Positions 4,038 through 26,886 of a stretch of DNA of 64,000 nt are shown here, one piece after another; positions within the stretch are counted from its first letter, which is position 1, and each line of letters opens with the position of its first letter. The position numbers were made by a program, and so were the translations under genes. The stretch comes from Prescottella subtropica. Lineage in GTDB: Bacteria; Actinomycetota; Actinomycetes; Mycobacteriales; Mycobacteriaceae. The notes beneath the pieces were generated by a model. That model saw nothing but the letters and a program-made list of their open reading frames with translations, did not search any database and was not told where the DNA came from. The stretch lies in contig NZ_SKCH01000002.1 of the NCBI RefSeq assembly GCF_005434945.1, positions 186,001-250,000 of the forward strand, given 5' to 3'.

Positions 4038-4617
4038 TCCGGTCGAAGAATGCGGTCAGGTGCGCCTCGTGCAGGGTTGGCGTCGACAATCGTGGGCCGA
4101 TCAGCGCCATGACGTTGGCGCCCACGTTCATCACGATCAGCTCGTCCACCAGTTGCTCGTCGGGAGTGTCGACGACGACGTCGCCGTCCTCCCGGGCCTG
4201 GGCGAGGAGGCCGAACAGCTGTCGGCGCCAGTTCTCGAGGTGTTCGAGGTAGTGGTCGTAGAGCCGTTGATTGGACAGCGACAGTTCCCAGAACGGCAGC
4301 AGGACCCGTCCGGCGGTGATGCCTTCTTCGTCGAGCGGCATTGCCGCCCAGCACAGTTCGCGTAGCGCGGCGAGTCCGCGTTGTTCCTCGACGGCAGCGA
4401 CGACACGCTCGGTCATCACCTCCAGCGCACGCTCGTAGGTGGCCTCGACGATGTCGTCCTTGCTGGGGAAGTAGTGCTTGAGGGCGCCGTTCGCGAAGCC
4501 GGCCGCATTCGCGATCTCGCGCATCGTGACCGACTCGAGGCCGCCGTCGACGATGAGTTTCCAGGTGACGTCGATGATCTCGCGTCGCCGCTCGTCGTGG
4601 TCGATGATCTTGGGCAT
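4024..4617 (-). CDS. TetR-family regulator, BetI-like (copy 2)
   Basis: A 197-residue protein with a helix-turn-helix at about residues 27-50 (IANAAGFANGALKHYF). It is paralogous to the neighbour at 3438-4037 (MPKIIDHDERRREII start) and convergent with it, the two stop regions overlapping at 4024-4037. The start at 4617 is fixed by this shared N-terminus, although the frame stays open upstream. Since every operon in the next 17 kb shares one operator-like element, one of the two TetR proteins probably controls it, but the sequence does not tell which. Confidence 0.9.
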   Translation of the reverse strand: MPKIIDHDERRREIIDVTWKLIVDGGLESVTMREIANAAGFANGALKHYFPSKDDIVEATYERALEVMTERVVAAVEEQRGLAALRELCWAAMPLDEEGITAGRVLLPFWELSLSNQRLYDHYLEHLENWRRQLFGLLAQAREDGDVVVDTPDEQLVDELIVMNVGANVMALIGPRLSTPTLHEAHLTAFFDRITAR

Positions 4618-4715
4618 CCGTACCCCCGTGCCTGCCGGCAACTCGCAACGGTGTGATTGTCGCCCAGCGTAGACGATCTGCCGGTGGGGAGGGAACGCGG
4701 TGTTCTCACACGCGC

Positions 4716-5771: not shown

Positions 5772-6752
5772 TCATCGGGCCTCGGCGACGAGGATGCGGG
5801 GGCATCCCGGCAGCGCGACGGTGTCGACGTGGGCCCAGCCGGCGGCCTCGAGCCAGCCGCGGACCTCGGACTCGGGGTAGACGATCGTGCCGTCGATGAC
5901 CAGGTACTCGCCGGCGTGCAGGGCGTCGATGCGGCGCTGGCGGGCGTCGTCGTCGAGGAAGAAGTCGAGCAGCACCAGGCGGGCGCCGGTGCGGGCGGCG
6001 CCGCGCGCGTTGCGCAGGATCGCGGCGTTCTGTTCGGCGTCGAAGCGGTGGACCACATGGTTGACCATGACGAGGTCGTGGTCGCCGACCGGCTGCGCGG
6101 TGGGGGTGTCGGCGCCGATCACCTCGGCGCGGTCGGTGAGTCCGGCGGCGGCCAGCTCCTTGACCACCGACTCGACGGCCGCCGGATCGAACACGAACGT
6201 GGTGTGCAGGTCGGGGTTGGCCTGCATGGCGGCGACGGAGAACCCGCTCGCGAGCCCGCCGAGGTCGAGCATCGAACGGTACGGCCCGAAGTCGAAGGCG
6301 CCGACGAGCATCCGGGCGTGCAGGGCGTTGTAGTTCATGACGCCGGCGAGGAAGTGGTTCCAACGTTCGCCCTCGAGGTCGAGGGTGCCGGGTTCGGTGG
6401 TGTCGACGGTGCCGTCGAACTGCAGCCAGTGGCCGTAGCTGATGTCGTTCAGGAAGGCGAGGAAGTCGCCCAGGTCGAGGTCGGCGTGCTCGCCGGTGAG
6501 GTAGGCGGCGGACTCGGCGGTGAGCCGGTACGTGCCGTCCGCGCGGTCGAGCAATCCGAGCGAGTTCATGGCGTCGGCCAGGATGCGTGTCATCTGTTGG
6601 GATACAGGGAGTTTCGTGGACAGGTCGGCCAGCGTGAGGGGGCCGTCCGCCAGAGCCTCGAACAGGCCGATGCGGCGAGCGGCGAACAGTTGCTTGGCGC
6701 CCATGTAGCCGACGGCGATGTCGACGATGGCGGCGGGGGAGGGAGCGGTCAT
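5772..6752 (-). CDS. SAM-dependent O-methyltransferase, winged-helix dimerisation type
   Basis: A 326-residue class I methyltransferase of the plant-type O-methyltransferase architecture: an N-terminal winged-helix dimerisation region (about 10-95) and a C-terminal Rossmann domain with the SAM-binding loop MLDLGGLASG at 161-170. The MVNHVVHRF segment carries the His residues near the usual catalytic position. It is the first gene of the operon with the esterase at 4772-5734. A TCTAC-N4-GTAGA element lies 65 bp upstream of the start. The acceptor substrate, probably a hydroxylated small molecule, cannot be deduced. Confidence 0.9.
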   Translation of the reverse strand: MTAPSPAAIVDIAVGYMGAKQLFAARRIGLFEALADGPLTLADLSTKLPVSQQMTRILADAMNSLGLLDRADGTYRLTAESAAYLTGEHADLDLGDFLAFLNDISYGHWLQFDGTVDTTEPGTLDLEGERWNHFLAGVMNYNALHARMLVGAFDFGPYRSMLDLGGLASGFSVAAMQANPDLHTTFVFDPAAVESVVKELAAAGLTDRAEVIGADTPTAQPVGDHDLVMVNHVVHRFDAEQNAAILRNARGAARTGARLVLLDFFLDDDARQRRIDALHAGEYLVIDGTIVYPESEVRGWLEAAGWAHVDTVALPGCPRILVAEAR

Positions 6753-7192
6753 GGTGTCTCGCTTTCGGGATGCCGGAACGCCGTTCCGGACGGGTCGGAC
6801 GCGAACTGCCGGAAAATCTACATTCGTAGAATAAACATGTCCAGGTCTTCCTCGGGTGGGAATTCGACACGGGCCCAGTCGAACCTGGGTTCGGAGTGGG
6901 GAGTGGAAGCCGGCGCCGGCGCTCGTTTGCCGACATGTGTAGACAAACCGGCAATCGGGGTCTAGCGTGATCCGCGCCACAGTCTGTGGCTCGTAGTTGA
7001 AACGCCGTCGTTCCGGGCTGCCGTGGGCGGGGTGCGAAGTGACGTCCTGCCGGCTGCCCGTGTCGAGCGAAAAGCACTTCCCGCCAAACCGTTCCGCTTG
7101 CTCGCCGTGCGCCGGCCCGTGCCGGATCGAGGATGCGCGAGGGGCGTGCGCCCGTCGCGTCAGCCCGCAGAGCTTCGAGAAGAAAGATTCCG
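6753..7192. other. Divergent intergenic region, methyltransferase/ABC importer
   Basis: A 440-bp gap without a convincing gene. It holds the 14-bp TCTAC-N4-GTAGA palindrome at 6817-6830. A half-site-like GTGTAGA is visible near 6938, nearer to the importer gene. A minus-strand -10-like TAGATT overlaps the palindrome. The rest shows no obvious structure. Confidence 0.6.
6817..6830. promoter_or_regulatory. Operator-like element TCTAC-N4-GTAGA (site 1)
   Basis: Perfect 5-bp arms around ATTC, followed by AATAAA. The minus-strand reading places a -10-like TAGATT across it, so a bound regulator would block the methyltransferase promoter. The same element recurs at 16939, 19235 and 21078, always in a divergent gap. 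Confidence 0.7.
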
Positions 7193-8710
7193 ATGAAAAG
7201 AACCTGGAAGGCTGTGGCTGCGTCCGCCGTCGCCCTCGTGCTCACCGCGTGTTCGGCGGGTGCCACGGGTGGCGGTGCCGGGGGCGGTCAGGTCGACGAG
7301 TTGAAGATCGGCACGTTCCTGGACCTGACGTCCTGGGATCCGGCCAAGGCCGACATCGGTTTCGACGGCCCCTACCTGTCGGCCGTGTACGACCCGCTGA
7401 TCGCCCTGGACGACCAGTCCCGGCCGATCCCGGCGCTCGCCACACAGTGGAGTTACTCGCCGGACGGGTTGACGCTGTCGATGGATCTCCGGTCCGGTGT
7501 CACGTTCGACGACGGTCAGGTATTCGACGCCGACGCCGCGGTCGCCAATCTCGAGCACCTCCGGAAGGGGGTGCGCTCCTCCGAGGCATACGGCAGCGTC
7601 GACGGCATCTCGAAGGTCGACGACGACACGATCGCCGTGCACCTGAACAAGCGGGACGACACGCTCCTCTACTTCATGGGACTGGGGCGCAGCTGGATGG
7701 CGTCGCCCGCCGCCATCGCGTCCGGCACGCTCGACGCCGGGCCGGTCGGCTCCGGGCCGTACACGTTCGAGGCGTCGCAGTCGACCGCCGGCTCCCAGTA
7801 CGCATTCACCAAGAAGGATCGGCACTGGGATTCGGCCACCTATCCGTTCCCGTCGGTCCGGCTGCTGCCGATCACCGACGCGGCCGCGAGCAGCAACGCG
7901 ATGCTCTCCGGGCAGCTCAACGTGAACTACGCGAACCCCGCCGACCGGCCGCGGGCCGAGCAGAACAACTGGAACATCGCGTCGGGCGTGGCGACGTGGG
8001 TGGGGCTGCAGTTCGTCGACCGCACCGGACAGCGTCTGCCCGCGCTCGGTGACGTCCGGGTGCGTCGCGCGCTCAACTACGCGTTCGATACCGCTGCGAT
8101 GCTCTCGTCGATCGGCAACAAGGCCGGTGAGCTGACCAATCAGTTGTTCACCGCCGACGATCCGGGCTACGACCCCGCGCTCGACGGCAAGTACGCGTAC
8201 GACATGGCGAAGGCGAAGTCGCTGCTCGCCGAGGCCGGCTACGGCGGCGGTTTCTCGGTGACGATGCCCATGACCACGATGTTCCAGCCGTGGCAGCCCG
8301 CCGTCGAGCAGACGTTCCGTGAACTCGGCATCAAGGTGACCTGGGACAACGTGTCGCCCATGGACTATCAGAAGAACGCGCCGACCTACCCGATGTTCAT
8401 CGCCGTCGTGGCCTTGGACTCGAACATGATGGCGACGGTCAACCGGCAGATCACCGTCCCGCAGTGGTACAACCCGGAGCCGGGCATCGCGTCCCAGCCG
8501 GAGATGGCCAGGCTCGCGGAGACAGCGCACACCGCGACCGGCCAGGACCAGGTGGACGCGGTCCGGGAACTCAACGCGCAGGTGGTCGACCAGGCGTTCA
8601 ACGCGGTCTGGTACCAGGCGAACAACACCTACTTCAGCGTGCAGGGCGTCACGGTCACCCCGATCACCGGAACGATGTTCCCGCCGCTGCGCTTCATCCA
8701 GCGCGGCTAG
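7193..8710 (+). CDS. ABC transporter substrate-binding lipoprotein, peptide/nickel family 5
   Basis: Extracytoplasmic solute receptor of a DppA/OppA-type importer, 505 residues. The signal peptide ends in the lipobox LTAC with the lipid-modified Cys at residue 20, followed by a Gly-rich linker. The mature part has the cluster 5 core, for example the DLTSWDPAKAD and DPLI segments near its start. The ATG at 7193 is placed directly before the signal sequence. It leads a four-gene operon with both permeases and both ATPases. Family 5 receptors bind peptides, glycosides, nickel chelates or other organics, so the name dipeptide transporter is not safe. Confidence 0.92.
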   Translation: MKRTWKAVAASAVALVLTACSAGATGGGAGGGQVDELKIGTFLDLTSWDPAKADIGFDGPYLSAVYDPLIALDDQSRPIPALATQWSYSPDGLTLSMDLRSGVTFDDGQVFDADAAVANLEHLRKGVRSSEAYGSVDGISKVDDDTIAVHLNKRDDTLLYFMGLGRSWMASPAAIASGTLDAGPVGSGPYTFEASQSTAGSQYAFTKKDRHWDSATYPFPSVRLLPITDAAASSNAMLSGQLNVNYANPADRPRAEQNNWNIASGVATWVGLQFVDRTGQRLPALGDVRVRRALNYAFDTAAMLSSIGNKAGELTNQLFTADDPGYDPALDGKYAYDMAKAKSLLAEAGYGGGFSVTMPMTTMFQPWQPAVEQTFRELGIKVTWDNVSPMDYQKNAPTYPMFIAVVALDSNMMATVNRQITVPQWYNPEPGIASQPEMARLAETAHTATGQDQVDAVRELNAQVVDQAFNAVWYQANNTYFSVQGVTVTPITGTMFPPLRFIQRG

Positions 8711-8768
8711 CGCCGTTCGTGTGGCGGGCCGCCCAGACCGGCGGCCCGCCACCGCCAAGGAGTCCAAC

Positions 8769-9710
8769 ATGGTCAATCTGATAGTCAAGCGACTCGCGTC
8801 GGGTATCGCCCTGCTGCTGATCGTCACCAGCGCCGTGTTCTTCATGGCGCATTTCGCGGTCGGGGACCCCACCGCAGGTCTGCTCGGGAACAGTGCCACC
8901 GAGACGCAGCGAGCCGCTCTCCGTGAGCAACTCGGTCTCGAACGTCCCCTCGTCGTGCAGTACTGGGACTGGTTCTCGCACGCCGTGCGCGGCGACTTCG
9001 GTACGTCGTGGCGTAACTTCCAGCCGGTCGGAGACCAGATCGCACTGCGCCTGCCGGTGACACTGTCGGTGGTCGTCGCGGCGACCGTCCTCGCGGGCGT
9101 CCTCGGCGTCGCGATCGGCATCGTGTCCGGCCGGCATCCCGGTGGCGCCGTCGACCGGACACTCAAGCTGGCATCCGTCGCCCTGTTCGCACTGCCCGGA
9201 TTCTGGGTCAGCCTCGTGCTGGTGATGTGGTTCGCGATCCAGCTGCGCTGGTTCCCGGCGGTGGGCTACGTCGCCCCGGCCGAGTCGGTCACCGGGTGGC
9301 TGCGCTCGATCACGCTGCCCGCCGTATCCCTCGCGCTCGGCGGGATCGTCATGCTCGGCGAACAACTCCGCAACGCGTTCGTCCAGGTCTCCGGCTCGGA
9401 CTTCGTCCGCACGCTGCGTGCCCGCGGCCTCCCCGAGTCGCGGGTGACCCGGCACGTGGTGCGGAACGCGTCGTCGTCGACACTCGCCGTCCTCGCCCTG
9501 ATCTTCGTGGGACTGCTGGGCGGCGCGGTCGTCGTCGAGATCATCTTCAACCTGCCGGGCATCGGCAGCCTCACCCAGTCGGCCTCACAGATCGGAGACA
9601 TTCCCGTCCTCCTCGGATTGACGGCTGTGACAGTCGCATTCGTCGTCATCGTCAACCTCCTGCTCGACGTCGTACTCGGGTGGGTCAACCCGAAAGCGCG
9701 CCAGTCATGA
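8769..9710 (+). CDS. ABC transporter permease, DppB type
   Basis: A 313-residue inner-membrane permease with six predicted helices and the family's N-terminal segment MVNLIVKRLASGIALLLIV. The cytoplasmic EAA-like loop is visible (RTLRARGLPESRV). The ATG at 8769 is preceded by AAGGAG. It partners with the DppC domain of the next gene, which starts inside its stop codon (ATGA). Confidence 0.93.
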   Translation: MVNLIVKRLASGIALLLIVTSAVFFMAHFAVGDPTAGLLGNSATETQRAALREQLGLERPLVVQYWDWFSHAVRGDFGTSWRNFQPVGDQIALRLPVTLSVVVAATVLAGVLGVAIGIVSGRHPGGAVDRTLKLASVALFALPGFWVSLVLVMWFAIQLRWFPAVGYVAPAESVTGWLRSITLPAVSLALGGIVMLGEQLRNAFVQVSGSDFVRTLRARGLPESRVTRHVVRNASSSTLAVLALIFVGLLGGAVVVEIIFNLPGIGSLTQSASQIGDIPVLLGLTAVTVAFVVIVNLLLDVVLGWVNPKARQS

Positions 9711-11515
9711 CCACTGCCCCGCTCGACCCGCCCGTTGCGTCGCCGTCGCACCGTGGAAGCATCGCGTCCCGGTTCTTCCGCCGTCCGCTCGGCACGATCG
9801 CGTTCGTGATGCTGGCCGTGGTCCTCGTCGTCGCGATCCTCGCACCGGTTCTCGCACCGTACGATCCCAACCTCGTGGACTTCGCGCTCACCAAGGCGCC
9901 CCCCGGTGCGGGTCACCCGCTCGGCGGTGACTCCGCCGGCCGGGACATCCTCAGCCGGTTGCTCTTCGGCGCGCAGACCACCCTCTATGGGGCGTTCGTG
10001 ACGTGCCTGACCGGCCTCCTCCTCGGCACCCCCGCCGGTGTCGCGGCCGGCTACTTCGGCGGCGGCCTGGATCGGGCCTGCACATGGGTCAGCGACGCCG
10101 TGCAGTCGGTGCCGGCCATGATCGTGCTGCTCATCGTCGCGTCCGGCAGCGGTTCGAACTTCACCGTGCTGATGGTCACCATCGGAATCTTCCTGGCCCC
10201 CGGATACTTTCGGATCGCCCGGTCGCTCGCGCAGACGGTACGCCGCGAGGCCTACATCGATGCGGCGCAGGTCTCCGGTCTGAAGACCGGGAGGATCCTC
10301 GCCGCGCACGTGGCACCGTCGGTGTACGCGCCGATCATCATCCAGACGGCCCTCACCGCCGGCATCGCGATGGGCATGCAGGCCGGGCTGCAGTTCCTCG
10401 GTGTCGGGTCCGCGTCGACCCCCAGTTGGGGCGCGATGATGAACGACGGCTTCCTCAACATGCTCAACCATCCGCTGATCCTGCTGTGGCCGTCGCTGGC
10501 ACTCGGCATCACGATCGCCTCGCTCGCGCTGGTGGGATCGACGCTCGCCGACGTCGTCGGGGCGCCCACCGTCGTGCCGCGCCGTAAACGTCGCGCCCCG
10601 CGCCCCGGCGGTGTCACCCCGCCGGCACCTCGCGCGGCAGAACAGGATCCGGCACCGGAGCGCGACCCGTCGGGGGCCGCGCTCCGGATCGAGAACCTGC
10701 GCGTCACCTACCCCGGCCCCGACGGTGACAGGGAGGTCGTGCACGAGGTGAGCCTCTCGGCCGCACCCGGCGAGGTCCTCGGCATCGTCGGTGAGTCCGG
10801 CTCCGGCAAGTCCCAGACGATGTTCGCGGCCCTCGACCTGCTGCCCGCCGGCGGTGAAGCCCACGCCGACGGCATCTGGATCGGCGGCACCGAGGTGGGA
10901 TCCCTGCCCCGGCGTCGGCGGCACGCCCTGTTCGGTTCCGGAATCGGTTACATCCCACAGGAACCCATGACCAACCTCGACCCCTGCTACACGATCGGAC
11001 ACCAGCTCACCGAGCCGCTGCGCGTCGTCGCCGGACTGTCGAAGACGCAGGCCCGTGATCGGGCCCGTGACACCCTCGCCCGCGTCGGGATCGTCGACCC
11101 GGATCGGGTGCTCGCGTCGTATCCGCACCAGATCTCGGGCGGTATGGCGCAACGGGTACTCATCGCCGGCGCGGTCATCTGCAAGCCGGCACTGCTGATC
11201 GCGGACGAGCCGACCACCGCCCTCGACGTCCTGGTGCAGGCCGAGGTCCTCGACCTGCTGCGGGAACTGCAACGGGAGGACGGAATGGCTCTCGTGCTGG
11301 TCACACACAACTTCGGGGTCGTCGCCGACATCTGCGACCGCGTCGTCGTCATGAGGGACGGCCGCGTCGTGGAGGAGGGCCCGGTGGACCGTATCTTCGC
11401 CGACCCGGCCGACCCGTACACCGCCGAACTCATCGGCGCCTCCCTCGACGACACCGACTGTCGGGGGCAGATCGACGGCGCCAGCGCCGAGACCGAGAGG
11501 ACCGTGAACGCATGA
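9707..11515 (+). CDS. Fused ABC permease-ATPase, DppC-DppD type
   Basis: A 602-residue fusion of two proteins that are normally separate. Residues 1 to about 300 are a DppC permease (N-terminal helix, SAGRDILSR block, EAA-like loop with AAQVSGLKTG). A Pro/Arg-rich linker of about 30 residues follows. Residues from about 325 onward form the DppD ATPase, with Walker A GESGSGKS at 362-369, signature ISGGMAQRV and Walker B LLIADEP. The start overlaps the dppB stop (ATGA) and its end overlaps the next ATPase gene (ATGA). No stop or frameshift lies in the linker. Such fusions occur in actinobacteria and should not be read as an assembly error. Confidence 0.92.
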   Translation: MTTAPLDPPVASPSHRGSIASRFFRRPLGTIAFVMLAVVLVVAILAPVLAPYDPNLVDFALTKAPPGAGHPLGGDSAGRDILSRLLFGAQTTLYGAFVTCLTGLLLGTPAGVAAGYFGGGLDRACTWVSDAVQSVPAMIVLLIVASGSGSNFTVLMVTIGIFLAPGYFRIARSLAQTVRREAYIDAAQVSGLKTGRILAAHVAPSVYAPIIIQTALTAGIAMGMQAGLQFLGVGSASTPSWGAMMNDGFLNMLNHPLILLWPSLALGITIASLALVGSTLADVVGAPTVVPRRKRRAPRPGGVTPPAPRAAEQDPAPERDPSGAALRIENLRVTYPGPDGDREVVHEVSLSAAPGEVLGIVGESGSGKSQTMFAALDLLPAGGEAHADGIWIGGTEVGSLPRRRRHALFGSGIGYIPQEPMTNLDPCYTIGHQLTEPLRVVAGLSKTQARDRARDTLARVGIVDPDRVLASYPHQISGGMAQRVLIAGAVICKPALLIADEPTTALDVLVQAEVLDLLRELQREDGMALVLVTHNFGVVADICDRVVVMRDGRVVEEGPVDRIFADPADPYTAELIGASLDDTDCRGQIDGASAETERTVNA

Positions 11516-12381
11516 CCGGCACCATCGACACCACCGATCCGTTCGCACCCGACCGGCCCGGGACGGCGCTGCTCTCCGCGGAGAACGTCGTCGTCGAATA
11601 CCCGGCCCGTGGCAAGAAGACGTTCCGTGCCCTCGAGGGTGTCTCTCTCGACATCGGACAGTCCGAATGCGTCGGGCTGGTCGGCGGCAGCGGGTCCGGC
11701 AAGTCGACGCTCGGCAAGGCGATCCTCGGGCTCGCGCCCGTCGCGAGTGGCCGGATCGTGTTCGACGGCACCGACATCACCCGGGCCCGGGGCGCGAACC
11801 GCCGTAGCCTGTCGCGCAGTATCCAGGTGGTGTTCCAGGACCCGTACGGGTCGCTGAATCCGCGGATGACCGTCGGTGAGGTCCTCGCCGAACCGCTCGT
11901 CGCGTCGGGCACGGGGAAGTCCGCGGCCCGCAGTGCCGTCACCGAGGCCCTCGATCTGGTCTCGCTGCCCCGTGGTTCCGCGGACCGCTACCCGAGCGAG
12001 TTCTCCGGCGGCCAGCGGCAGCGGGTCGCGATCGCGCGGGCGCTGGTGCGCCGGCCACGCCTGATCATCTGTGACGAACCGGTCAGCGCACTGGATCTGA
12101 CGACGCAGGCATCGATCGTGGACCTGTTCATCGACGTCCAGCGCAACACCGGGGTGTCGTACCTGTTCGTCTCGCACGACCTGAACGTGGTGCGCCGTCT
12201 CTGCCACCGGGTGTCGGTGCTGCACCACGGCACCATCGTCGAAACCGGTGACGCCGAGGCGGTGACCCGGTCGCCGCGGCACGAGTACACCCGCAGGCTG
12301 CTGCTCGCGTCCCCGGTCGCGGACCCTGAGCGGCAGGCGGCCCGCCGACGGGAGTGGGCGCGGCTGCGCGAGACGGCCTGA
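11512..12381 (+). CDS. ABC transporter ATP-binding protein, DppF/OppF type
   Basis: A 289-residue second ATPase of the importer. Walker A GGSGSGKST is at 58-66, the signature is FSGGQRQRV, and Walker B reads LIICDEP. It has the typical OppF C-terminal region after HEYTRRLL. It overlaps the fused gene by 4 bp and ends the importer operon; a strong hairpin follows at 12395-12430. Confidence 0.94.
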   Translation: MTGTIDTTDPFAPDRPGTALLSAENVVVEYPARGKKTFRALEGVSLDIGQSECVGLVGGSGSGKSTLGKAILGLAPVASGRIVFDGTDITRARGANRRSLSRSIQVVFQDPYGSLNPRMTVGEVLAEPLVASGTGKSAARSAVTEALDLVSLPRGSADRYPSEFSGGQRQRVAIARALVRRPRLIICDEPVSALDLTTQASIVDLFIDVQRNTGVSYLFVSHDLNVVRRLCHRVSVLHHGTIVETGDAEAVTRSPRHEYTRRLLLASPVADPERQAARRREWARLRETA

Positions 12382-12394
12382 CCGCTCCCCACGA

Positions 12395-12430
12395 CGAAAG
12401 CCCCTGTGCTGTGACGCACAGGGGCTTTCG
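12395..12430. terminator. Bidirectional terminator between importer and MFS genes
   Basis: A perfect 14-bp stem (12395-12408 and 12417-12430) with an 8-nt loop. It begins CGAAAGCCCC and ends GGGGCTTTCG, so both directions end in a short A/T stretch. It serves the convergent plus-strand importer and minus-strand MFS operons. Confidence 0.8.
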
Positions 12431-12441
12431 CGTGTCGCGGG

Positions 12442-13677
12442 TTACCGTGCCGGTGCCAGGACGGGCGACGTGGCCTCGCGTCGGCGCACGAGCGGTGCGA
12501 CCACCGTCCACACGACGACGGTGGACGCCACACTCGCGGTCACCATCGTCACCGCCATCGTGACCGTGTTCGCGCCGCCGAGCGAGACCAGCGGTGCGAC
12601 CAGCGGGCCGGCCACGAACGTTGCCGTCCCGAGCAGGGCAGCTGCTGTCCCGGCATGTGCGGCATGGGATTCGAGTGCGAGTACCGAACTGTTGGGCGAC
12701 GACATGCCGCTGCAGGCGAGCAGCACGGCGAGGGCCGTCAGAACCGGGAACAGTCCCGCACCGGTGAGCGCGAACCCGAGCATGGCGAGTGCGGCGGCCG
12801 TCGTCGCGGTCGACGCGGCCACATACATTCGCAGGGGGCCGACTCGGGTGACGAGGGCCCGGTTGAGCTGCGCGCCGAGCACCGACGCCACCGAGTTGGC
12901 CGCGAAGATCAGGCTGAACGCCTGCGGGCCCAGGTGGTGCTCGTTCTGCACGACGAAACTGATCGACGCGAGGTACGTGAAGAACGTGATCCCACCGAAC
13001 ACGAGCGCGGTGAGGATCGCCACGAACGCCCGGTCGCCGAGCACCACCGCGAAATGCCGGCCCGTGGCGGCCGGCCCACCGCCGTGCCGGCGTTCCGGGG
13101 GCAGCGTCTCACGCAGGGACGTCGCGCCGATCGCGAAGATCGCGGCACCGAATCCGGCCAGGACGACGAAGATGCCCCGCCAGCTCATGACCGTCGCGAG
13201 CTGACCGCCGATGACGGGCGCCAGGATCGGGGCCAGCGCGGCCACCAGTGCGAGCATCGACAGCAGCCGCGAGAGTTCTGCGCCGTCGAAGAGGTCGCGG
13301 GCCACGGCCAGCGCCATGACGATCCCGGCCGATCCGGCGAGCCCCTGGAGGAACCGGACCGCCAGCAGGACTTCGATGTTCGGTGCGGCGGCGCATGCCA
13401 GGCTGAGTACCGCGAACAGCGCCACACCGACGAGCAGTGGTGGGCGCCTGCCGAACCGGTCGCTGAGCGGTCCGACGACGAGTTGGCCGAGACCGAGCCC
13501 GATCATCGACGCCGACATCGTGGCCTGCGACAGCGCGTCGCTGGTGCCCAGGTCGGCGGCCAGCTGCGGCAGCGACGGCATGTACAGGTCCATCGACAGC
13601 GGCCCGAAGACCTCGAGCGCACCGAGGACGAGGATGCTGCGGCGCAGGCTCATCACCGGCGCCGCGGGGGCCGTCAC
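12442..13677 (-). CDS. MFS exporter, Bcr/CflA drug-resistance type
   Basis: A 411-residue, 12-helix major facilitator with the N-terminal signature MDLYMPSLPQLAADL and the loop 2-3 motif GPLSDRFGRRP, both typical of Bcr/CflA multidrug exporters. The GTG start at 13677 overlaps the stop of the esterase before it (GTGA); an ATG at 13653 is the alternative. As the last gene of a four-gene catabolic operon it may export the substrate or a toxic intermediate. Confidence 0.9.
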   Translation of the reverse strand: MTAPAAPVMSLRRSILVLGALEVFGPLSMDLYMPSLPQLAADLGTSDALSQATMSASMIGLGLGQLVVGPLSDRFGRRPPLLVGVALFAVLSLACAAAPNIEVLLAVRFLQGLAGSAGIVMALAVARDLFDGAELSRLLSMLALVAALAPILAPVIGGQLATVMSWRGIFVVLAGFGAAIFAIGATSLRETLPPERRHGGGPAATGRHFAVVLGDRAFVAILTALVFGGITFFTYLASISFVVQNEHHLGPQAFSLIFAANSVASVLGAQLNRALVTRVGPLRMYVAASTATTAAALAMLGFALTGAGLFPVLTALAVLLACSGMSSPNSSVLALESHAAHAGTAAALLGTATFVAGPLVAPLVSLGGANTVTMAVTMVTASVASTVVVWTVVAPLVRRREATSPVLAPAR

Positions 13678-14681
13678 ACCGACCCCTGCGTCGCCGTGCC
13701 CAGCACCCGGTCGATCCACGAGAGGCGTGCGTCGTCGGACGCCGCCGCGACCGCGGTACCGGCGGAGAACCCGGAGAAGCCGTGGTAGCCACCGGACCAC
13801 ACGTGCAGCTCGGCGGTGCCACCGGACGCCCAGATGCGGCCCGCGTAGGCGATCGCCTCGTCCCGGAACACCTCGGCGGCGCCGACGGTGACGAACGCCG
13901 GCGGCAGCCCGGACAGGTCGGTGGCGCGGGCGGGTGCGGAGTACGGGGACACGGCGTCGGTGAAGCGGTCGGCGCCGAGGATCGCGTCCCATGCGGTGTC
14001 GTTGTTGTTGCGGTCCCATGCGCCGATCCCGTCGTACTGGCGGGCCGACACGGTCTCGTTGCGGTCGTCGAGCATGGGGCAGTCGAGGAGCTGACCGACG
14101 AGGTCCGGGCCGCCGCGGTCGCGGGCCATGAGCGCGACCGCGGCGCTGAGTCCGCCGCCCGCGCTGGCACCGCCGACGAGGATCCGCTGCGGGTCGACAC
14201 CGAGGGCGGCGGCGTTGCCGGCCAGCCAGCACAGTCCGGCATAACAGTCCTCGGCGGCGGCGGGGCCGGGATGCTCGGGGGCGAGCCGGTATTCGACGCT
14301 CACCCCGACCGCACCGGTGCGCAGCACCAGGTCGGCGAGGCCGTCGAGTCCGAAGAAACGGTTGCCGAGGATCATGCCGCCGCCGTGGATCTGGTAGATC
14401 GCGGGCCGGCCGGCGGCGGGTGCGCCGCCGTCGCGGGGCCGCAGGATCGTCAGTTCGATCTCGGGGGCACCATCCGGTCCGGGCACCCGCCGGTGCTCGA
14501 CGTCGACGGGGCGGTCGCCGATCTGGGTGTCGGCAGGCGGGACGATCGTTTCGAAGTGGGCGCGGTTGACGTGGATCGTGCCCGCGCGCAACGGGATCCG
14601 TTCCACGAGGTCGAGGAACGCGGCCAGGCCCGGTTCGAGGTCGGGATCGTAGGGGACGGGCGGGACGGGAACGTAGGTCAT
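13674..14681 (-). CDS. Alpha/beta hydrolase, hormone-sensitive-lipase type
   Basis: A 335-residue esterase-like protein with oxyanion-hole motif HGGG at 99-102 and nucleophile motif GASAGG at 171-176 (Ser173). The usual acidic residue before the nucleophile is Ala here, a mild deviation. The C-terminal GGYHGF carries the probable catalytic His. It lies between the aldo/keto reductase and the MFS gene of the same operon, so it probably hydrolyses an ester or related bond in the same unknown substrate. Confidence 0.9.
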   Translation of the reverse strand: MTYVPVPPVPYDPDLEPGLAAFLDLVERIPLRAGTIHVNRAHFETIVPPADTQIGDRPVDVEHRRVPGPDGAPEIELTILRPRDGGAPAAGRPAIYQIHGGGMILGNRFFGLDGLADLVLRTGAVGVSVEYRLAPEHPGPAAAEDCYAGLCWLAGNAAALGVDPQRILVGGASAGGGLSAAVALMARDRGGPDLVGQLLDCPMLDDRNETVSARQYDGIGAWDRNNNDTAWDAILGADRFTDAVSPYSAPARATDLSGLPPAFVTVGAAEVFRDEAIAYAGRIWASGGTAELHVWSGGYHGFSGFSAGTAVAAASDDARLSWIDRVLGTATQGSV

Positions 14682-14781
14682 GGGCTCGGCTTTCTGGGAA
14701 GGGATGCGGCGTCGCCCCCCGGACCGGATGTCCGAGGGGCGACGGGGGATCGGGGATGGGCGGCTGTGGCTGCGGCCGCGA

Positions 14782-15750
14782 TTACGGCCCGGCCGGGTCG
14801 ACGACGCCGGCGTCGGCCTGCAGGTCGGCGACCAGATCGCGCAGCGGCTGCGCGCCGACACGTTCGACGAGGTCGACGGCGCCGAGGTTCTCGCGCAGTT
14901 GGGTGATGCTCGTGGCCCCGAACAGGGTGGTGGTGTTGGCCGGGTGGGTGAGTGTGAACGCGACGGCCAACTGGGCGGCGGTGGTGCCGAGTTCGGCGGC
15001 GATCGCGACGAGCTTCGGGGCGACCTCGACGATCCGCTCGCGGATCCCGCCGGGGTCGCGGCCGATCTCCCGCTGCGGAGTCTTGCCGGCGAGGATGCCG
15101 CCCTCCATCACGTCGGAGGACTGCATGGTCAGGCCGCGGGCCCACAGGGCGGCGAACGGTTCGCCGTCGGGGATGGCGCGGCGGGCGACGCTGTACTTGA
15201 GTTGCGCGATCTGCGGTCCGGGGACGCCGTCGGCGGCGGCGACGTCGAGCAGGGTGCCGACATTGACGGCGGACCAGTTGTTCACTCCCCACGCGCCGAT
15301 CAGGCCGGCGTCGCGCAGGTCGGCGAGGTCGTGGACGAGGCGGGTCAGGTCGAGGCCCTCGGTGCGCAGGTCGCCGAGGATCACCAGGTCGGCGTGGTCG
15401 GTGCCGGCGCGCAGCAGCGCGTTCTCCAACTGGTCGCGCAGCGGCTGCGCCGGGTACGGCTCGAGCCACAGCTTGGCGGAGAGCTGGTACTGCTCGCGGT
15501 GCAGCCCGGCGGCCCGGACGATCGCCGAGAACAGCACGTCGGTGAACACCGGCGGGTGCCCGGGCATGCTGTAGACGCCGACGTCGAACAGGGTGATACC
15601 GCGGTCGACGGCCTCGGAAACCATCGCGACCGCGTCGCGGAAGTCCATGCGGTCGTAGGTGTGCCACGAGCCGAGGGCGAGCGTGGAGGTCAGGGGGCCG
15701 TCGGCGCCGATGCGGCGCTGTGGGATCGGGGCCAGGGCAGTGTCGGGCAT
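14782..15750 (-). CDS. Atypical aldo/keto reductase (copy 1)
   Basis: A 322-residue TIM-barrel aldo/keto reductase. The catalytic Asp and Tyr are in LFDVGVY and the Lys in LSAKLW. The residue usually His in the fourth tetrad position appears replaced: the strand reads VILGD. The paralogue at 19284-20249 has the same change (VVVGD). The reaction could be an NAD(P)-linked oxidation or reduction with altered chemistry. It is 24 bp after the zinc dehydrogenase gene, in one operon. Confidence 0.88.
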   Translation of the reverse strand: MPDTALAPIPQRRIGADGPLTSTLALGSWHTYDRMDFRDAVAMVSEAVDRGITLFDVGVYSMPGHPPVFTDVLFSAIVRAAGLHREQYQLSAKLWLEPYPAQPLRDQLENALLRAGTDHADLVILGDLRTEGLDLTRLVHDLADLRDAGLIGAWGVNNWSAVNVGTLLDVAAADGVPGPQIAQLKYSVARRAIPDGEPFAALWARGLTMQSSDVMEGGILAGKTPQREIGRDPGGIRERIVEVAPKLVAIAAELGTTAAQLAVAFTLTHPANTTTLFGATSITQLRENLGAVDLVERVGAQPLRDLVADLQADAGVVDPAGP

Positions 15751-15774
15751 GGGGGTCTCCTTCGGGAGCAGGGG

Positions 15775-16920
15775 TCAGGGCAGGCGGGGGTCGACGACGG
15801 CCTTGATCTCACCGAGCCGGTGCATCGAGGCGAGCGCGTCGGATGCGGATCCGAGTCCGACCGGGGTGCTGAACAATTCGTCCCACGGGAAGCGGTCACC
15901 GAACGTGCCGAAGAACTCGACGGCCCGGTAGTAGTCGGCGATGTCGCCGTTGAGGGAGCCGACTACGGACAGTTCCTTGCCCATCACCGTGCCCAGGGCG
16001 ACGGGGGTGGCCACCGGTCCGGTGCTGCCGACGATCGCGACCGTGCCCCGGTGCGCGGCCACCCCGATCGCCTCCTCGCCGACGCTGGGTGCGCCCGCGA
16101 AGTCGAACACGTAGTCGGCGCCGCCGCCGGTGAGGTCGAGGATGTGCTCGATCCGCTCGGCCGGGGCGGCCGACAGGTCGACGGTGTCGGTGGCGCCGAA
16201 CGCGGTGGCGGCGCGCAGTCGGTCGTCGGGGCCACCGACGGTGACGATCCGGCCGGCGCCGGAGATCTGCGCGAACGCGGTCGCGAACAGGCCGAGGGCG
16301 CCCGCACCCTGGACGACGACACTGGCGCCGGGACGGATGCCGCCGACGCGGGAGAAGGCGCGCAGCACGGTCTTGGCGGCGCAGCCACTCATCGCGGCGT
16401 GGGTGTCGGCGACCTGTTCGGGCAGCAGCAGTTTCGCGGCACCGGGGGTGACGTAGCAGTACTCGACGAGCCCGCCGGTGGCGTACGGGGCGACGTCGGA
16501 GCGTTGCAGGAAGCCGTAGCCGCGGGACGAGCACGCGACAGGCTCGCGCAGCACCGTGCAACCGAAGCAGGTGCCGCACGTGGATTCGGACCAGCCGATG
16601 CGGTCGCCGATCGACACGGGACGGCCGAGGGTGTCGACGGTGCCGTCACCGACCGCGACGACGGTGCCGACCATCTCGTGCCCGAGGACCATCGGCAGCA
16701 TGCCGGGGAAGGTCATGGCGCCCGACCACAGGTGGACATCGGTGCCGCACAAGGAGGTACAGCTGACCTGGACCAGGGCGGCGCCGGGTTCGACGGTGGG
16801 CGGCAGCGGGATCTCGCCGATGCTCAGGGGCTGTCCGTGCGCGGTGAGGACCGCGGCGCGGGTCGAGACGCGTGGCGTGGTGGATACGGGCAATTCGGTC
16901 TCCTTGATCGGGGTGGACAT
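15775..16920 (-). CDS. Zinc-dependent alcohol dehydrogenase (MDR family)
   Basis: A 381-residue medium-chain dehydrogenase. The catalytic zinc site is indicated by SLCGTDVH and the GHEMVG motif. The structural zinc site has four Cys in CGTCFGC and the following VAC. The nucleotide fold has GAGALG. It starts at 16920, only 27 bp from the divergent amidohydrolase frame, and a TAGACT -10-like box on the minus strand overlaps the shared operator. It probably oxidises an alcohol in the unknown pathway. Confidence 0.92.
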   Translation of the reverse strand: MSTPIKETELPVSTTPRVSTRAAVLTAHGQPLSIGEIPLPPTVEPGAALVQVSCTSLCGTDVHLWSGAMTFPGMLPMVLGHEMVGTVVAVGDGTVDTLGRPVSIGDRIGWSESTCGTCFGCTVLREPVACSSRGYGFLQRSDVAPYATGGLVEYCYVTPGAAKLLLPEQVADTHAAMSGCAAKTVLRAFSRVGGIRPGASVVVQGAGALGLFATAFAQISGAGRIVTVGGPDDRLRAATAFGATDTVDLSAAPAERIEHILDLTGGGADYVFDFAGAPSVGEEAIGVAAHRGTVAIVGSTGPVATPVALGTVMGKELSVVGSLNGDIADYYRAVEFFGTFGDRFPWDELFSTPVGLGSASDALASMHRLGEIKAVVDPRLP

Positions 16921-16938
16921 CGCCGTGAATTGCTTTAG

Positions 16939-16952
16939 TCTACGAGCGTGGA
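16939..16952. promoter_or_regulatory. Operator-like element TCTAC-N4-GTAGA (site 2)
   Basis: TCTACGAGCGTGGA: one mismatch to the consensus arms, followed by AATAAAA. It overlaps a minus-strand TAGACT -10 box for the dehydrogenase operon and also the first possible GTG of the amidohydrolase. Confidence 0.65.
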
Positions 16953-18354
16953 AATAAAATCACCAGAGTTTCCGGAGGCGGATTTCGCCCCACCTGCTGT
17001 GAACGTGACTGACGCACACGCGGATTCGGTCGTCCTCGGAGCGACCGTATCGGCACTCGATCCCGATGCCCGTCCGGCGACCGCGCTCGCGATCCGCGGC
17101 GGACGGATCGTCGCGACGGGCGACGAGCGCGACGTCCGGCACCTGATCGGACCCCGCACCGAGGTCCTCGAATTCGCCGGACGGGCCCTGGTTCCCGGTA
17201 TCAACGACTCGCACCTGCACGCCGCGTGGCTCGGCGCGATGTGGCCCGCCACGCTCCTCGGCGGCGGAACCGACCCCGCCGACCCGCCCCCGGCCCTGGT
17301 GACCGCGGCGGACCGGCGCGCGGCGATCCTGCGAGCGGTGCGGATCGCCTCCGGCCTGGGCATCACCAGTTTCACCGAACCGGGACTGGGGCCGGGGGAG
17401 GACGACGGCCCCACCGGGTGTTTCTCGTCCGCCGTTCTCGACGAGTACGCGGCCCTGTCGCGGGAGGGCGCCCTGGATGCGCGCGTCACGGTGCTGCGCC
17501 TGTTCGGGGAACTCGACGGGCCGAGCGCCGTGGCGAACCTCGAGCGCGGACTGGACACACCTGTCCCGCAGTCCGACCCGCGGTGGCTGCGGGTGGCCGG
17601 GGTGAAGATCTTCGCCGACGGCATCCCGCCCATGCGGACCGCGTGGACCCACCACTGCTACGCCGACGGCACCGACGGTGCCCTGCTCGTCGACGGCGCC
17701 GACGCGGCCGAGCGGGAGGCGAACCTGCGCCGGATGATCGCCCTCGCGCACGCGCGCGGCCTGCAGATCGGCGTCCACGCCACCGGGGACCGCACCATCG
17801 AGACGATGGTCGACGCGCTCGCCCGTGAGCAGCAACGGGATCCGCAGCGGCCCCGGCACTACGTCATCCACGGCGACCTGGTCACCCCCGAGATCCTCGG
17901 CCGGATGGCCGCCGTCGGGGTGGGTCTGAACACCCAGCCGTGCATCGCCGCGCAGACCCGCGGGTGGATGGCCGGCGCCCTCGGCGACGAGATCGCCGGC
18001 GCCGCCTGGCCGCTCGAACAGGCCTTCGCCGCCGGGGTGCCGGTGTCGCTGAGCTCGGATGCTCCGGTCCTCACCCCGGACTGGCGGCTCGGGATCGCGG
18101 CCGCGGCCGCGTCGATGCCGGACGCGGTGCGCCGCGACCCGCGGGCGGTGATGCGGCGGCTGCTGCGCTGCTACACCGTCGAGCCGGCGGTGCAGGATCG
18201 CGCCGAGCACTGGAAGGGCACGCTTGCCGTCGGGATGGCCGCGGACGTCTGTGTCCTCGAACAGGATCCACTCGAGCTCGCCCCGAGTGAACTGCCCGAC
18301 GTCGCGGTCGATGCGACGATCGTCGACGGCCGGACGGTGTTCCGCCGGAGCTGA
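16948..18354 (+). CDS. Metal-dependent amidohydrolase, YtcJ-like
   Basis: A 468-residue amidohydrolase of the type 3 (exoenzyme/YtcJ) group. The N-terminal metal motif is HLH in NDSHLHA. Later His residues in VHATGD and VIHGD and the Asp in SSDAP complete the binuclear site. It would hydrolyse an amide, lactam or formamide-like bond. The start is uncertain. GTG 16948 is the most upstream possibility but lies inside the operator. GTG 17005 gives VTDAHADSVVLG, which better matches family N-termini. The gene diverges from the zinc dehydrogenase. Confidence 0.88.
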   Translation: MEIKSPEFPEADFAPPAVNVTDAHADSVVLGATVSALDPDARPATALAIRGGRIVATGDERDVRHLIGPRTEVLEFAGRALVPGINDSHLHAAWLGAMWPATLLGGGTDPADPPPALVTAADRRAAILRAVRIASGLGITSFTEPGLGPGEDDGPTGCFSSAVLDEYAALSREGALDARVTVLRLFGELDGPSAVANLERGLDTPVPQSDPRWLRVAGVKIFADGIPPMRTAWTHHCYADGTDGALLVDGADAAEREANLRRMIALAHARGLQIGVHATGDRTIETMVDALAREQQRDPQRPRHYVIHGDLVTPEILGRMAAVGVGLNTQPCIAAQTRGWMAGALGDEIAGAAWPLEQAFAAGVPVSLSSDAPVLTPDWRLGIAAAAASMPDAVRRDPRAVMRRLLRCYTVEPAVQDRAEHWKGTLAVGMAADVCVLEQDPLELAPSELPDVAVDATIVDGRTVFRRS

Positions 18355-18360
18355 GCCTCG

Positions 18361-18385
18361 TGGGGGCGGGACGTACCCGCCCCCA
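18361..18385. terminator. Terminator between convergent amidohydrolase and SDR genes
   Basis: A 10-bp G/C-rich stem (TGGGGGCGGG with its complement) and a 5-nt loop, placed in the 42-bp gap between the two convergent stops. Confidence 0.65.
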
Positions 18386-18396
18386 CCACGACCGGC

Positions 18397-19140
18397 TCAG
18401 GCGAGGAGTTGGCCGCCGTCGACAGCCAGGCTCACTCCGGTGATGTGGGCGGCCCCGGGGCCGGCCAGGAACACCACGGACGGCACGACGTCGTCGACCC
18501 CGGCGATGCGTCCGGACGGAATCCGCGACTCCCATGCCGCCCGGGCCTCGGCGTTGCTCGCGAACTCGGCGGTCATCGGCGTGAGCACCGGTCCGGGGGC
18601 GACGGCATTGACCCGGATCCCGTCGGCGGCGAACTCGATCGCGGCGGACCGGGTGATGGCGTCGACGGCGGCCTTGGTGGCCTCGTAGTGCCCGAGTCCG
18701 GGGGTGGGCTGGCGGGCGCCGATCGAGCTGACGTTGACGATCGCACCGCGCGTGCCGTGCGTCATCATGTGTGCCCCGACGGCGCGGGTCATCAGGAAGG
18801 TGCCGCGGAAGTTCACCCGGAGCACGGTGTCGAGAACCTCGACGGGCAGGTGGACGAGCGGTGCGCCGCCGGCGGCCAGGCCGGCGTTGTTGACCAGGAC
18901 CTCGATCGGCCCGTGCTCGGCGGTGACGGCGGCGACGGCGGCGTCGATCGAGTCCGCGTCACCGATGTCGACGCGCACGTGTCCGGCGCCGATCTCCTGC
19001 GCGGTGGAGGCCGCGGCCGCGGGGTCGATGTCGGCGACGACGACGCGGTCGCCGGCGGCGACGAAGGCCTCGGCGATACCGCGGCCGATACCGCTCGCGC
19101 CGCCCGTGACGAGCACCGTGCGTCCGCTGGATGTGTTCAT
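18397..19140 (-). CDS. Short-chain dehydrogenase/reductase
   Basis: A 247-residue classical SDR with cofactor motif TGGASGIG near residue 12, NNAG, and the catalytic Y-x-x-x-K (YEATK). The ATG at 19140 is the only start that gives a normal N-terminus. An Asp after the second beta strand (VADID) suggests NAD preference. It diverges from the second aldo/keto reductase across a shared operator element. Confidence 0.92.
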   Translation of the reverse strand: MNTSSGRTVLVTGGASGIGRGIAEAFVAAGDRVVVADIDPAAAASTAQEIGAGHVRVDIGDADSIDAAVAAVTAEHGPIEVLVNNAGLAAGGAPLVHLPVEVLDTVLRVNFRGTFLMTRAVGAHMMTHGTRGAIVNVSSIGARQPTPGLGHYEATKAAVDAITRSAAIEFAADGIRVNAVAPGPVLTPMTAEFASNAEARAAWESRIPSGRIAGVDDVVPSVVFLAGPGAAHITGVSLAVDGGQLLA

Positions 19141-19234
19141 GGTGAGACCTCCATGGGTCGGAGAGGAGTGATTTCTGTTGAGCGCGTGAGAGTTCGGAGA
19201 ACGTCCGGGATGGCACACCGTCCGCTCGCTATGT

Positions 19235-19248
19235 TATACAAGCGTAGA
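19235..19248. promoter_or_regulatory. Operator-like element TCTAC-N4-GTAGA (site 3)
   Basis: TATACAAGCGTAGA followed by AAATAAA, in the 143-bp gap between the SDR and aldo/keto reductase genes. The minus-strand -10-like TATAAC overlaps its left arm. Confidence 0.65.
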
Positions 19249-19283
19249 AAATAAATGTGACGGAGGCAACAGGAGGTGGACGG

Positions 19284-20249
19284 ATGACCGAGAGCATCAC
19301 GACCCCGAGGCGTCGGCTCGGGCCCGGTGGGCCGGAGGTGTCGCTCCTCGGGCTCGGCTCGTGGAACACGTGGGACCGCATGGACTTCGACGATGCGGTG
19401 GCGCTCGTCCACCGGGCCGTCGACGCGGGGGTCACGCTGTTCGACGTCGCGCACTACAACATGGGCCCGCACGCCGAACAGGCCCGGACCGACATCATCT
19501 TCGGCGAGGTGATCCGTGCGGCCGGTGTGCCCCGCGGCGAGTACCAACTGTGCGGCAAGCTGTGGCTGTGGGAATACCCGGCGACCGGGTTCGGCGAGCA
19601 GATGGTGCGGTCCCTCGACCGGATCGGGATCGAGTCCGCCGACACCGTGGTGGTCGGCGACTACTTCGAACGCCCCGACATTCCACGCCTGGTCACCGAT
19701 GTCGGCGAGCAGATCCGAGCCGGCCGGTTCGCGAGTTGGGGTGTCAACAACTGGATCGCCGACGACCTGCGCGCAGCACTCGATTTCGCTCGAGCCGAGA
19801 GCATTCCGGCACCGACCTTCGCGCAGCTCAAGTACAGCGTCGTACGCCGCAGCATGGCCGAGGGGTCGCACTACGGCGCACTCTTCGCCGACGGCACCCT
19901 GGCGTTGCAGGCCTCCGACGTCCTCGAGGGTGGCATCCTGGCCGGAAAGAAGCATCCCGACCGCAAGATCGGCGCCGATCCGGGGGAGATCCGGGAGCGG
20001 ATCCGCGACGCCGCGGACACGGTCGCGCGGATCGCCGCCGAGTTCGGGGTGACCCCGGCGCAGTTGTCGGTCGCGTTCTGCCTGGGCAACCCGGCGGTCG
20101 CGAACGTGCTGGTCGGGGTGAGCCGTATCTCGCAGCTCGAGGACAACCTCGGAGCGATCGAACTGTACGCCCGGCACGGCGCCGAGATCGACGCCGCGCT
20201 GTCCGAGCTGTGGCTCGACCGGGAGGTCCGCGCGGACGGCGCCTGGTAG
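19284..20249 (+). CDS. Atypical aldo/keto reductase (copy 2)
   Basis: A 321-residue paralogue of the enzyme at 14782-15750, sharing blocks such as LGSWNTWDRMDF (LGSWHTYDRMDF in copy 1), AQLKYSV and DVLEGGILAGK. Asp and Tyr are in LFDVAHY and Lys in CGKLW. The His position again reads VVVGD. The ATG at 19284 is preceded by AGGAGGTGG, so it is preferred over the GTG at 19257. The two copies lie in separate operons under the same operator type. Confidence 0.9.
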   Translation: MTESITTPRRRLGPGGPEVSLLGLGSWNTWDRMDFDDAVALVHRAVDAGVTLFDVAHYNMGPHAEQARTDIIFGEVIRAAGVPRGEYQLCGKLWLWEYPATGFGEQMVRSLDRIGIESADTVVVGDYFERPDIPRLVTDVGEQIRAGRFASWGVNNWIADDLRAALDFARAESIPAPTFAQLKYSVVRRSMAEGSHYGALFADGTLALQASDVLEGGILAGKKHPDRKIGADPGEIRERIRDAADTVARIAAEFGVTPAQLSVAFCLGNPAVANVLVGVSRISQLEDNLGAIELYARHGAEIDAALSELWLDREVRADGAW

Positions 20250-20263
20250 TACCGTCCGCGCGG
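20228..20263. terminator. Hairpin spanning the end of the aldo/keto reductase gene
   Basis: A perfect 12-bp inverted repeat (20228-20239 and 20252-20263) whose loop contains the stop codon. It lies between convergent genes. Confidence 0.6.
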
Positions 20264-20277
20264 CTCGCCGTGCCCGC

Positions 20278-21036
20278 TCAGGATGCGGGTGCGGCGAGGA
20301 ATTCCTGTGCCGTACTGCGGAACTCGGTGCTCGTCAGGGCTCCGTGGTGGTCGCCGGGGACCCGCACGACGGTCGCTCCCGGAATCAGGGCGGCCAGGTC
20401 GTCGATCCCCGCCGTCATGGGGTCGGCGTCGCCGGCCACGAACAGGGTCGGGGTGTCGAACCTGGTGTCCTGCGGCGCGAACGGCTCGGCGCGCAGGCCT
20501 TCGATGCAGGTGGCGAGCGCGGCAGCGTTCCGGCCGGGGGTGGTGATCATCGTGGTGATCATCGCGGTCAGGCCGTCGGCCGGGGCGTCGCCGCCGCCCA
20601 GGTGGGTGTGGATCGCATCGACGTCGACGGCCCCGAACGGCTCGACGGGACTCAGTCCACCGAGGATCATCTTCCGCACCGTCACCGCCGGATGTCGTGG
20701 CAGCTCCCAGGCCAGCCGGGCGCCGAGCGAGTAGCCGATCACATCGACGACGGTCGCGCCGCCGAGCGCCGCCACCAGATCGTCGACCATCGCGGTGGCG
20801 GTGACCTGCGCGGCGTCGGAGGGTGCCGGGCTGGCGCCGTGGCCGCGCAGATCGGGAACGATCACGGTCCGGCCTGCCGCCGCGAGCTCCTGCGGCCAGC
20901 CGGCGTCCGCCCAGTCGGCGGTGCCGTCGGAGGTGAATCCGTGGACGAGCAGGACCGGGGGACCGGACGGCGGGGCGGTGGGGGTGGTCGTGCGGACGGT
21001 CAGGGGTGCGATGCCGGTCCGGGGGTGAGCGGTCAC
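20278..21036 (-). CDS. Alpha/beta hydrolase
   Basis: A 252-residue alpha/beta hydrolase with the HGF oxyanion region near residue 33, nucleophile elbow GYSLG, acid in the GDADPMT segment and catalytic His near the C-terminus (GDHHG). The start is GTG at 21036. It resembles C-C bond or lactone hydrolases and esterases of the MhpC/EstA type, but substrate cannot be assigned. It is divergent from the AraC gene and has operator site 4 upstream. Confidence 0.87.
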   Translation of the reverse strand: MTAHPRTGIAPLTVRTTTPTAPPSGPPVLLVHGFTSDGTADWADAGWPQELAAAGRTVIVPDLRGHGASPAPSDAAQVTATAMVDDLVAALGGATVVDVIGYSLGARLAWELPRHPAVTVRKMILGGLSPVEPFGAVDVDAIHTHLGGGDAPADGLTAMITTMITTPGRNAAALATCIEGLRAEPFAPQDTRFDTPTLFVAGDADPMTAGIDDLAALIPGATVVRVPGDHHGALTSTEFRSTAQEFLAAPAS

Positions 21037-21077
21037 GGAAGCTCCTTCGGAATCTCTGGTGGACGAACCACTTTTAG

Positions 21078-21091
21078 TCTATGAATGTAGA
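21078..21091. promoter_or_regulatory. Operator-like element TCTAC-N4-GTAGA (site 4)
   Basis: TCTATGAATGTAGA followed by CAATAAA, in the gap between the hydrolase and the AraC gene. A minus-strand TAGACT -10-like box overlaps it, as at sites 1 and 2. Confidence 0.65.
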
Positions 21092-26857: not shown

Positions 26858-26886
26858 GCTCGCCCCTACCTTCCCGGAGACCACCG

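Follow-up and report, generated by a model that had tools for sequence, protein, structure and literature searches.

A palindromic element in the divergent gaps of an actinobacterial catabolic cluster, candidate operator of a TetR-family regulator

Gene cluster and palindromic sites

The stretch of Prescottella subtropica DNA analysed in this study (64,000 nucleotides of contig NZ_SKCH01000002.1, referred to as the window) carries a catabolic gene cluster in which a palindromic element, TCTAC-N4-GTAGA, recurs in the divergent intergenic gaps, and which contains the gene of a TetR-family regulator, TetB, as the candidate reader of that element. The gene of TetB (4024..4617, minus strand) encodes the proposed repressor, with a Pfam TetR_N domain and a BetI-type C-terminal domain, and it converges with the gene of a second TetR-family regulator, TetA (3438..4037, plus strand), also assigned by Pfam and 30% identical to TetB. 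On the minus strand there follow estA (4772..5671), an esterase of the Abhydrolase_3 family that is LipP1-like and scores below the LipP1 cut-off, and a Methyltransf_2-type O-methyltransferase (OMT, 5772..6752). The importer on the plus strand (7193..12381) is composed of a family-5 solute-binding protein (SBP), two permeases and two ABC ATPases. Next come four minus-strand genes, an MFS exporter of the Bcr/CflA family (12442..13650), the Abhydrolase_3 esterase estB (13674..14570), an aldo/keto reductase (AKR1, 14782..15750) and a zinc-binding alcohol dehydrogenase (ADH, 15775..16920). The amidohydrolase (AMH, Amidohydro_3, 17005..18354, plus strand) is followed by an SDR dehydrogenase (18397..19140, minus strand), a second aldo/keto reductase (AKR2, 19284..20249, plus strand), an alpha/beta hydrolase (abh, 20278..21036, minus strand) and an AraC-family regulator (21197..22150, plus strand). 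Starts are approximate for estA, the exporter and estB, and were chosen for OMT, the importer, AMH, SDR, AKR2 and the AraC gene; the longest frame of AMH begins at 16948, within an operator site.

Between 4.6 and 21.2 kb there are four divergent gaps, and the element was found in each of them, as the first-pass annotation of this DNA had claimed, and at the positions which it had given. Site O1 (6817..6830, OMT/SBP gap) is exact, TCTACATTCGTAGA, with a matrix score of 33.4. The other three, for which that annotation had given the same pattern, each carry one mismatch: O2 (16939..16952, ADH/AMH gap, score 32.8) reads TCTACGAGCGTGGA, O3 (19235..19248, SDR/AKR2 gap, score 35.0) reads TATACAAGCGTAGA and O4 (21078..21091, abh/AraC gap, score 39.9, the top of the window) reads TCTATGAATGTAGA. 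The AATAAA said to follow each site is present at all four with a variable offset, and in the wider site set it becomes an A/T-rich flank on both sides of a 26-bp palindromic consensus, TTTTnnTCTACGnnCGTAGACTAAAA. Two further sites, which the first-pass annotation had missed, were picked up by score, O1b (6930..6943, score 22.4) in the same OMT/SBP gap as O1, and a weak variant, O5 (4660..4673, score 7.1), 43 bp upstream of tetB. All six are listed without strand. On the strand of tetB, O5 reads TCTACGCTGGGCGA and resembles the sequence CCTACACTGGTAGA, which precedes many TetB relatives at a similar distance.

The scores come from a 26-bp matrix for which 188 unique sites from other loci were used. 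It placed 21078, 19235, 6817 and 16939 on ranks 1 to 4 in the window, followed by 6930 and 4660, and the next score was 1.9. The bare pattern is not rare, because in the 4.40-Mb host genome TCTAC-N4-GTAGA occurs exactly at one place and with at most one mismatch at 13 places, four of them the window sites, as against one and 16 places for the reversed control pattern. It is the placement that stands out. The product of the per-gap chances of a site in each of the four divergent gaps is about 1e-14 to 1e-13, which is an overstatement since the pattern was picked from these very sites. At E ≤ 10, and with 150 of the 163 first-look candidates scored, a search of the host genome with a sequence model built from 100 distinct foreign sites scoring above 24 returned exactly the four places, each on both strands, and nothing else, so the many copies in unrelated genes that would have spoken against an operator were not seen.

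Conservation of the sites in related loci

The comparison was made with 80 loci from named genomes, each with a relative of the cluster's ADH, taken with one query as the best 80 of 160 relatives. Many of them belong to close relatives within Amycolatopsis, Microbacterium or Leucobacter, and the counts are not independent events. The loci end at 10 kb or at contig ends, absences apply to those stretches, and the protein query set does not include one permease (permC) or the FAH piece, both of which contained stops. The 80 loci share much of the cluster, frequently in the same gene order, and according to the record titles the cluster is present in many actinobacterial genera. Over these 1.53 Mb we found 248 sites with at most one mismatch, 54 of them exact, whereas the 29 other palindromes made up of the same letters averaged 11 and reached 52 at most. 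Only six of the 248 lie within matched coding stretches, and 79 loci have at least one site, the exception (L084) being a contig of 7.7 kb. The sites are kept at orthologous gaps: AMH/ADH in 52 of 52, AKR2/SDR in 64 of 65, OMT/abh in 16 of 16 and OMT/abcD in 15 of 15. None was found in 115 convergent gaps, before estB (118 cases) or before AKR1 (74 cases) of these loci. Because the sites of both the matrix and the model had been picked with the window's pattern, which is circular, a de novo count was run over all 1024 five-base half-sites with spacers of 0 to 12 (13,312 dyads) in gaps shorter than 800 bp. TCTAC-N4-GTAGA came first of the 13,312, being present in 151 of 153 gaps between divergent genes, in none of 87 between convergent genes and in 29 of 467 between tandem genes, and the runner-up (80) was a shifted version of the same dyad. 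The operator sites are thus a real, compact and widely conserved set, and the earlier proposal of a single operator tying the region into a single regulon is borne out by this conservation and by the specificity in the host genome.

The arms of the palindrome overlap promoter-like hexamers. On the minus strand the left arms of O1 to O4 are overlapped by TAGATT, TAGACT, TATAAC and TAGACT, in agreement with the -10-like boxes noted in the first-pass annotation, and those of O1, O2 and O3 may be the -10 boxes of OMT, ADH and SDR, respectively. Across the related loci, the arm facing ADH in the AMH/ADH gaps is TANNNT in 52 of 52, and the SDR-facing arm in the AKR2/SDR gaps is so in 63 of 66 sites. 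The AMH-facing arm is TANNNT in 0 of 52 and TTGAC-type, -35-like, in at least 19 of them. The OMT gaps are looser: of 42 sites in OMT/abcD gaps, 13 have TANNNT on the one side and 13 on the other, and of 26 sites in OMT/abh gaps, 5 and 12, respectively. Beside O1b a TAGACA (6940-6945) stands 17 bp before a TAGCGT (6963-6968) in the direction of SBP and the importer, and it could be the -35 box toward SBP. Operator arms would therefore in many cases serve as -10 or -35 boxes as well.

The amidohydrolase (E ≤ 1e-30) and TetB (E ≤ 1e-28) were found in none of 13 same-genus genomes, and for this reason the cluster was probably acquired together with its operators, or else lost by the relatives. 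A search with the same model at E ≤ 0.1 through ten further genomes that have the cluster gave matches in nine and none in one (G219). Four match places lie outside the fetched loci, in front of a second AKR2/AMH pair (L138), an SBP gene (L141), an abh/TetB cluster end (L134) and a phosphotriesterase-family gene (L136). The last of these (L136, position 1507) is unlinked and has a strong operator scoring 36.3; a gene of the same family is found in locus L018. In the Phytoactinopolyspora locus, a GH1 beta-glucosidase gene lies between AKR2 and SDR, with operators on both sides (4874 and 6703).

Candidate regulators of the element

The element is very probably the operator of a dedicated TetR-family repressor, TetB, to which the linkage between genes and sites points. 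The first-pass annotation had named both TetR genes as the likely regulators; for TetB this is supported, since a relative of at least 38% identity is present in 79 of the 80 cluster loci or their genomes, and for TetA it is not, as described below. Within the locus itself such a relative was found in 45 of 80 (33 aligned over at least 150 residues, most of the others being truncated where the locus ends), and whole-genome searches of the remaining 35 gave 15 of 15 and 19 of 20, the exception (G230) having 34%. In a set of 201 related genomes, six have an amidohydrolase of more than 50% identity, and each of these six has TetB at E below 1e-44. The TetR_N domain of TetB scored 52.5 bits against a curated cut-off of 24, which places the protein in the TetR family, and a palindromic operator linked to the regulator gene, as is typical of that family, was found at the level of linkage rather than binding. 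In an alignment of 41 proteins (the window protein and 40 of 53 references), T31, M32, R33, I35, A39, G40 and A42-K47 of the recognition region do not vary at all, and F41 hardly varies. This alignment excludes L114, L116 and L119 as non-orthologues and most of the other omitted references as near-duplicates, and it also excludes the proteins of G156 and G164. For the most part, the genes of the TetB relatives either carry an operator variant of their own or come after the importer genes. Among 46 TetB relatives (≥38%) not behind an ABC ATPase gene, the upstream operator score exceeds 7 in 37 and 15 in 25, and among 38 behind such a gene it exceeds 15 in none (best -11.6); these rows include the window itself and repeated genomes. 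In line with a role of TetB, the cluster of an Embleya plasmid, in which AMH, ADH, AKR1, AKR2, OMT and SDR are 51-64% identical, has no operator (best score -3.2) and, on the plasmid, no TetB match at 1e-25.

Several observations weigh against this assignment. The site at 4660 is by score alone not significant, because first-order Markov simulations (n = 60, 64 kb each) reached a top score of 12.0, with 20 scores above 7 in total. The model E-values of the four host sites, 0.007 to 0.69, are weak, and the same search at E ≤ 10 did not recover 6930. Upstream scores are only 1.5 for L034, L037 and L038, with L100 also within 1.5-3.4; the first three nonetheless read CCTACACTGGTTGA upstream. L036 has a 55% TetB relative with nothing recognisable upstream. 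Two more of the related genomes have a similar TetB score, G156 (2e-45, 41%) and G164 (7e-42, 39%; amidohydrolase 38%), and their TetB-like proteins, with the helix AGYANGALARYF, have no operator within about 1.5 kb. The Embleya cluster is a single comparison, with the genes rearranged and the search confined to the plasmid. Finally, a search with the exact bare pattern alone was uninformative: it gave a single place in the host, and 85 of the 201 related genomes have copies, which include close groups in genus g42, so other regulators probably use similar DNA.

Two side observations came from the same pattern counts. Four genomes of g42 (G131, G144, G153 and G161) have two or three exact copies of TCTAC-N4-GTAGA within about 75 bp, of the type TCTACAGCTGTAGA, which are probably the sites of another regulator. 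G085 has the reversed control pattern 18 times, as compared with 0-4 times in the other 200 genomes, perhaps as a repeat.

Among the alternatives to TetB as the dedicated reader, the best surviving one is that its adjacent paralogue TetA reads the element, alone or together with TetB, the two sharing or competing for the operator. Six TetR proteins 40-44% identical to TetA were found (L107, L117, L118, L119, L120 and L123), and four have the operator before their own gene (scores 28.6 in L107, 24.9 in L117, 31.5 in L118 and 29.5 in L120), with an amine oxidase (L107) or an amino-acid permease (L117) among the neighbours; however, the upstream scores of L119 and L123 are just 8.2 and 7.8. In the cluster loci TetA gave a better match than TetB at no more than 3 of 80, with 35-37% identity, and no TetA match over at least 120 residues exceeds 40%, hence TetA is not conserved with the cluster. 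The recognition helices also differ, AGLANGTVRHYF in TetA and AGFANGALKHYF in TetB, and no window site near TetA or the amine oxidase gene scores above 2. A role of TetA at these sites is on this evidence unlikely.

Considerably less probable still is control of the element by the AraC protein beside O4 or by a GntR/FCD protein encoded near 25 kb. The AraC gene adjoins the best-scoring site, yet a match to it (E ≤ 1e-15) is present in 2 of the 80 loci while sites are present in 79, and so the AraC protein looks like a target of O4 rather than a reader of the element. AraC proteins usually bind direct repeats, which also counts against this role. The GntR protein has a relative in 15 of the 80 loci but was not found in 65 within the stretches examined (E ≤ 1e-20). 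Least probable of all, and hardly to be expected, is that the element is mere core-promoter architecture of back-to-back -10 boxes bound by no regulator: the arms do coincide with -10- or -35-like hexamers, but the dyad persists at gaps in which one arm does not form a -10 box, as on the AMH-facing side, the four places are the only model matches in the host genome, and the Embleya cluster does without the element.

Proposed mechanism, pathway and comparison with known systems

The mechanism that we propose for TetB builds on features seen at the level of sequence, namely the sites themselves, the specificity and the orthologous-gap conservation that they show, their overlap with promoter-like hexamers and their linkage to tetB; the operon structure and transcription starts that it uses are predicted ones. 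When no inducer is present, a TetB dimer would sit on the TCTACR-nn-YGTAGA palindrome, whose arms would serve the divergent promoters as -10 boxes (of the TAGACT/TATAAC type) or as -35 boxes, and would block RNA polymerase both ways. An inducer, presumably the substrate or an early intermediate, would release TetB and jointly turn on the genes of the importer, methyltransferase, esterases, aldo/keto reductases, dehydrogenases, amidohydrolase and exporter and the AraC gene, and TetB may repress its own gene through the weak 4660 variant.

The flanks give some indication of the pathway. A copper amine oxidase gene lies at 1050-2972, with relatives in 12 of the 80 loci, and at 23780-29498 there are homoprotocatechuate meta-cleavage genes (HpaG-like FAH, RraA-like, GntR, HpaI-like, HpaE and HpaD). 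HpaD and HpaE score above their equivalog cut-offs (419.4 against 321.4 and 663.9 against 638.35); the aldolase is HpaI-like and the hydrolase HpaG-like, and 8 of the 80 loci have an HpaI relative next to the cluster. The FAH-RraA-GntR-HpaI-HpaE block has the same order in L015, L023, L046 and L049. Because the cluster is flanked by the amine oxidase and Hpa genes, which recur beside it, the substrate may be an aromatic compound, perhaps a phenylethanoid. The homoprotocatechuate genes do not appear to belong to the regulon, as, of the 25 best scores in the window, those beyond 21091 do not exceed 2, and the amine oxidase flank has no operator in the window. No NCBIfam family was above its cut-off for AKR1, AKR2, ADH, OMT, the amidohydrolase, abh or estB; among the matches listed, the MFS protein passes for the Bcr/CflA subfamily only and SDR only for a broad glucose-1-dehydrogenase subfamily. 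AKR6D1, a PDB relative of AKR2, pointed to mycotoxin papers and is too distant for its substrate to be transferred. The plasmid searches gave one related cluster of 50-60% identity, that of Embleya, which carries no annotation.

A wider rule can be put forward only tentatively. The TCTACR-nn-YGTAGA code might be common to an actinobacterial TetR branch with an AG[FY][AT]NGAL-type recognition helix, in which a large and widely transferred pathway for a perhaps plant-derived aromatic (glucoside or ester) would be controlled by TetB-type members and amine catabolism by TetA-type members, and where both occur together, as in the window, the two regulons could cross-talk via the same sites. L114 and L116, with the helix AGYANGAL and no operator nearby, speak against the helix rule. 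For the catabolic cluster the analysis provides a candidate regulator together with an operator matrix and a list of targets, and the operator makes the regulon searchable, leading in other species to unlinked pathway-like genes.

The closest PDB sequence to the TetB profile is 2nx4, a TetR-family protein (E 1.8e-50), compared here by its table entry alone, the name of which tells no operator, ligand or pathway. The NCBIfam equivalogs BetI and KstR are among the best matches to TetB, and TetB is a member of neither (54.5-56.3 against 118-201.3 and 45.5 against 280, respectively). The strings TCTACGATCGTAGA and TCTACNNNNGTAGA were not found in the literature searched, and the portions of it available to us held no paper naming the operator or the cluster. 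The system seems to be real and new, though of ordinary TetR type. It resembles TetR/tetO in its TetR_N domain, in a palindromic operator at divergent promoters and in a regulator gene that lies in the cluster with its own operator-like element, and it differs from TetR/tetO in having a single operator for four divergent gaps within a catabolic cluster.

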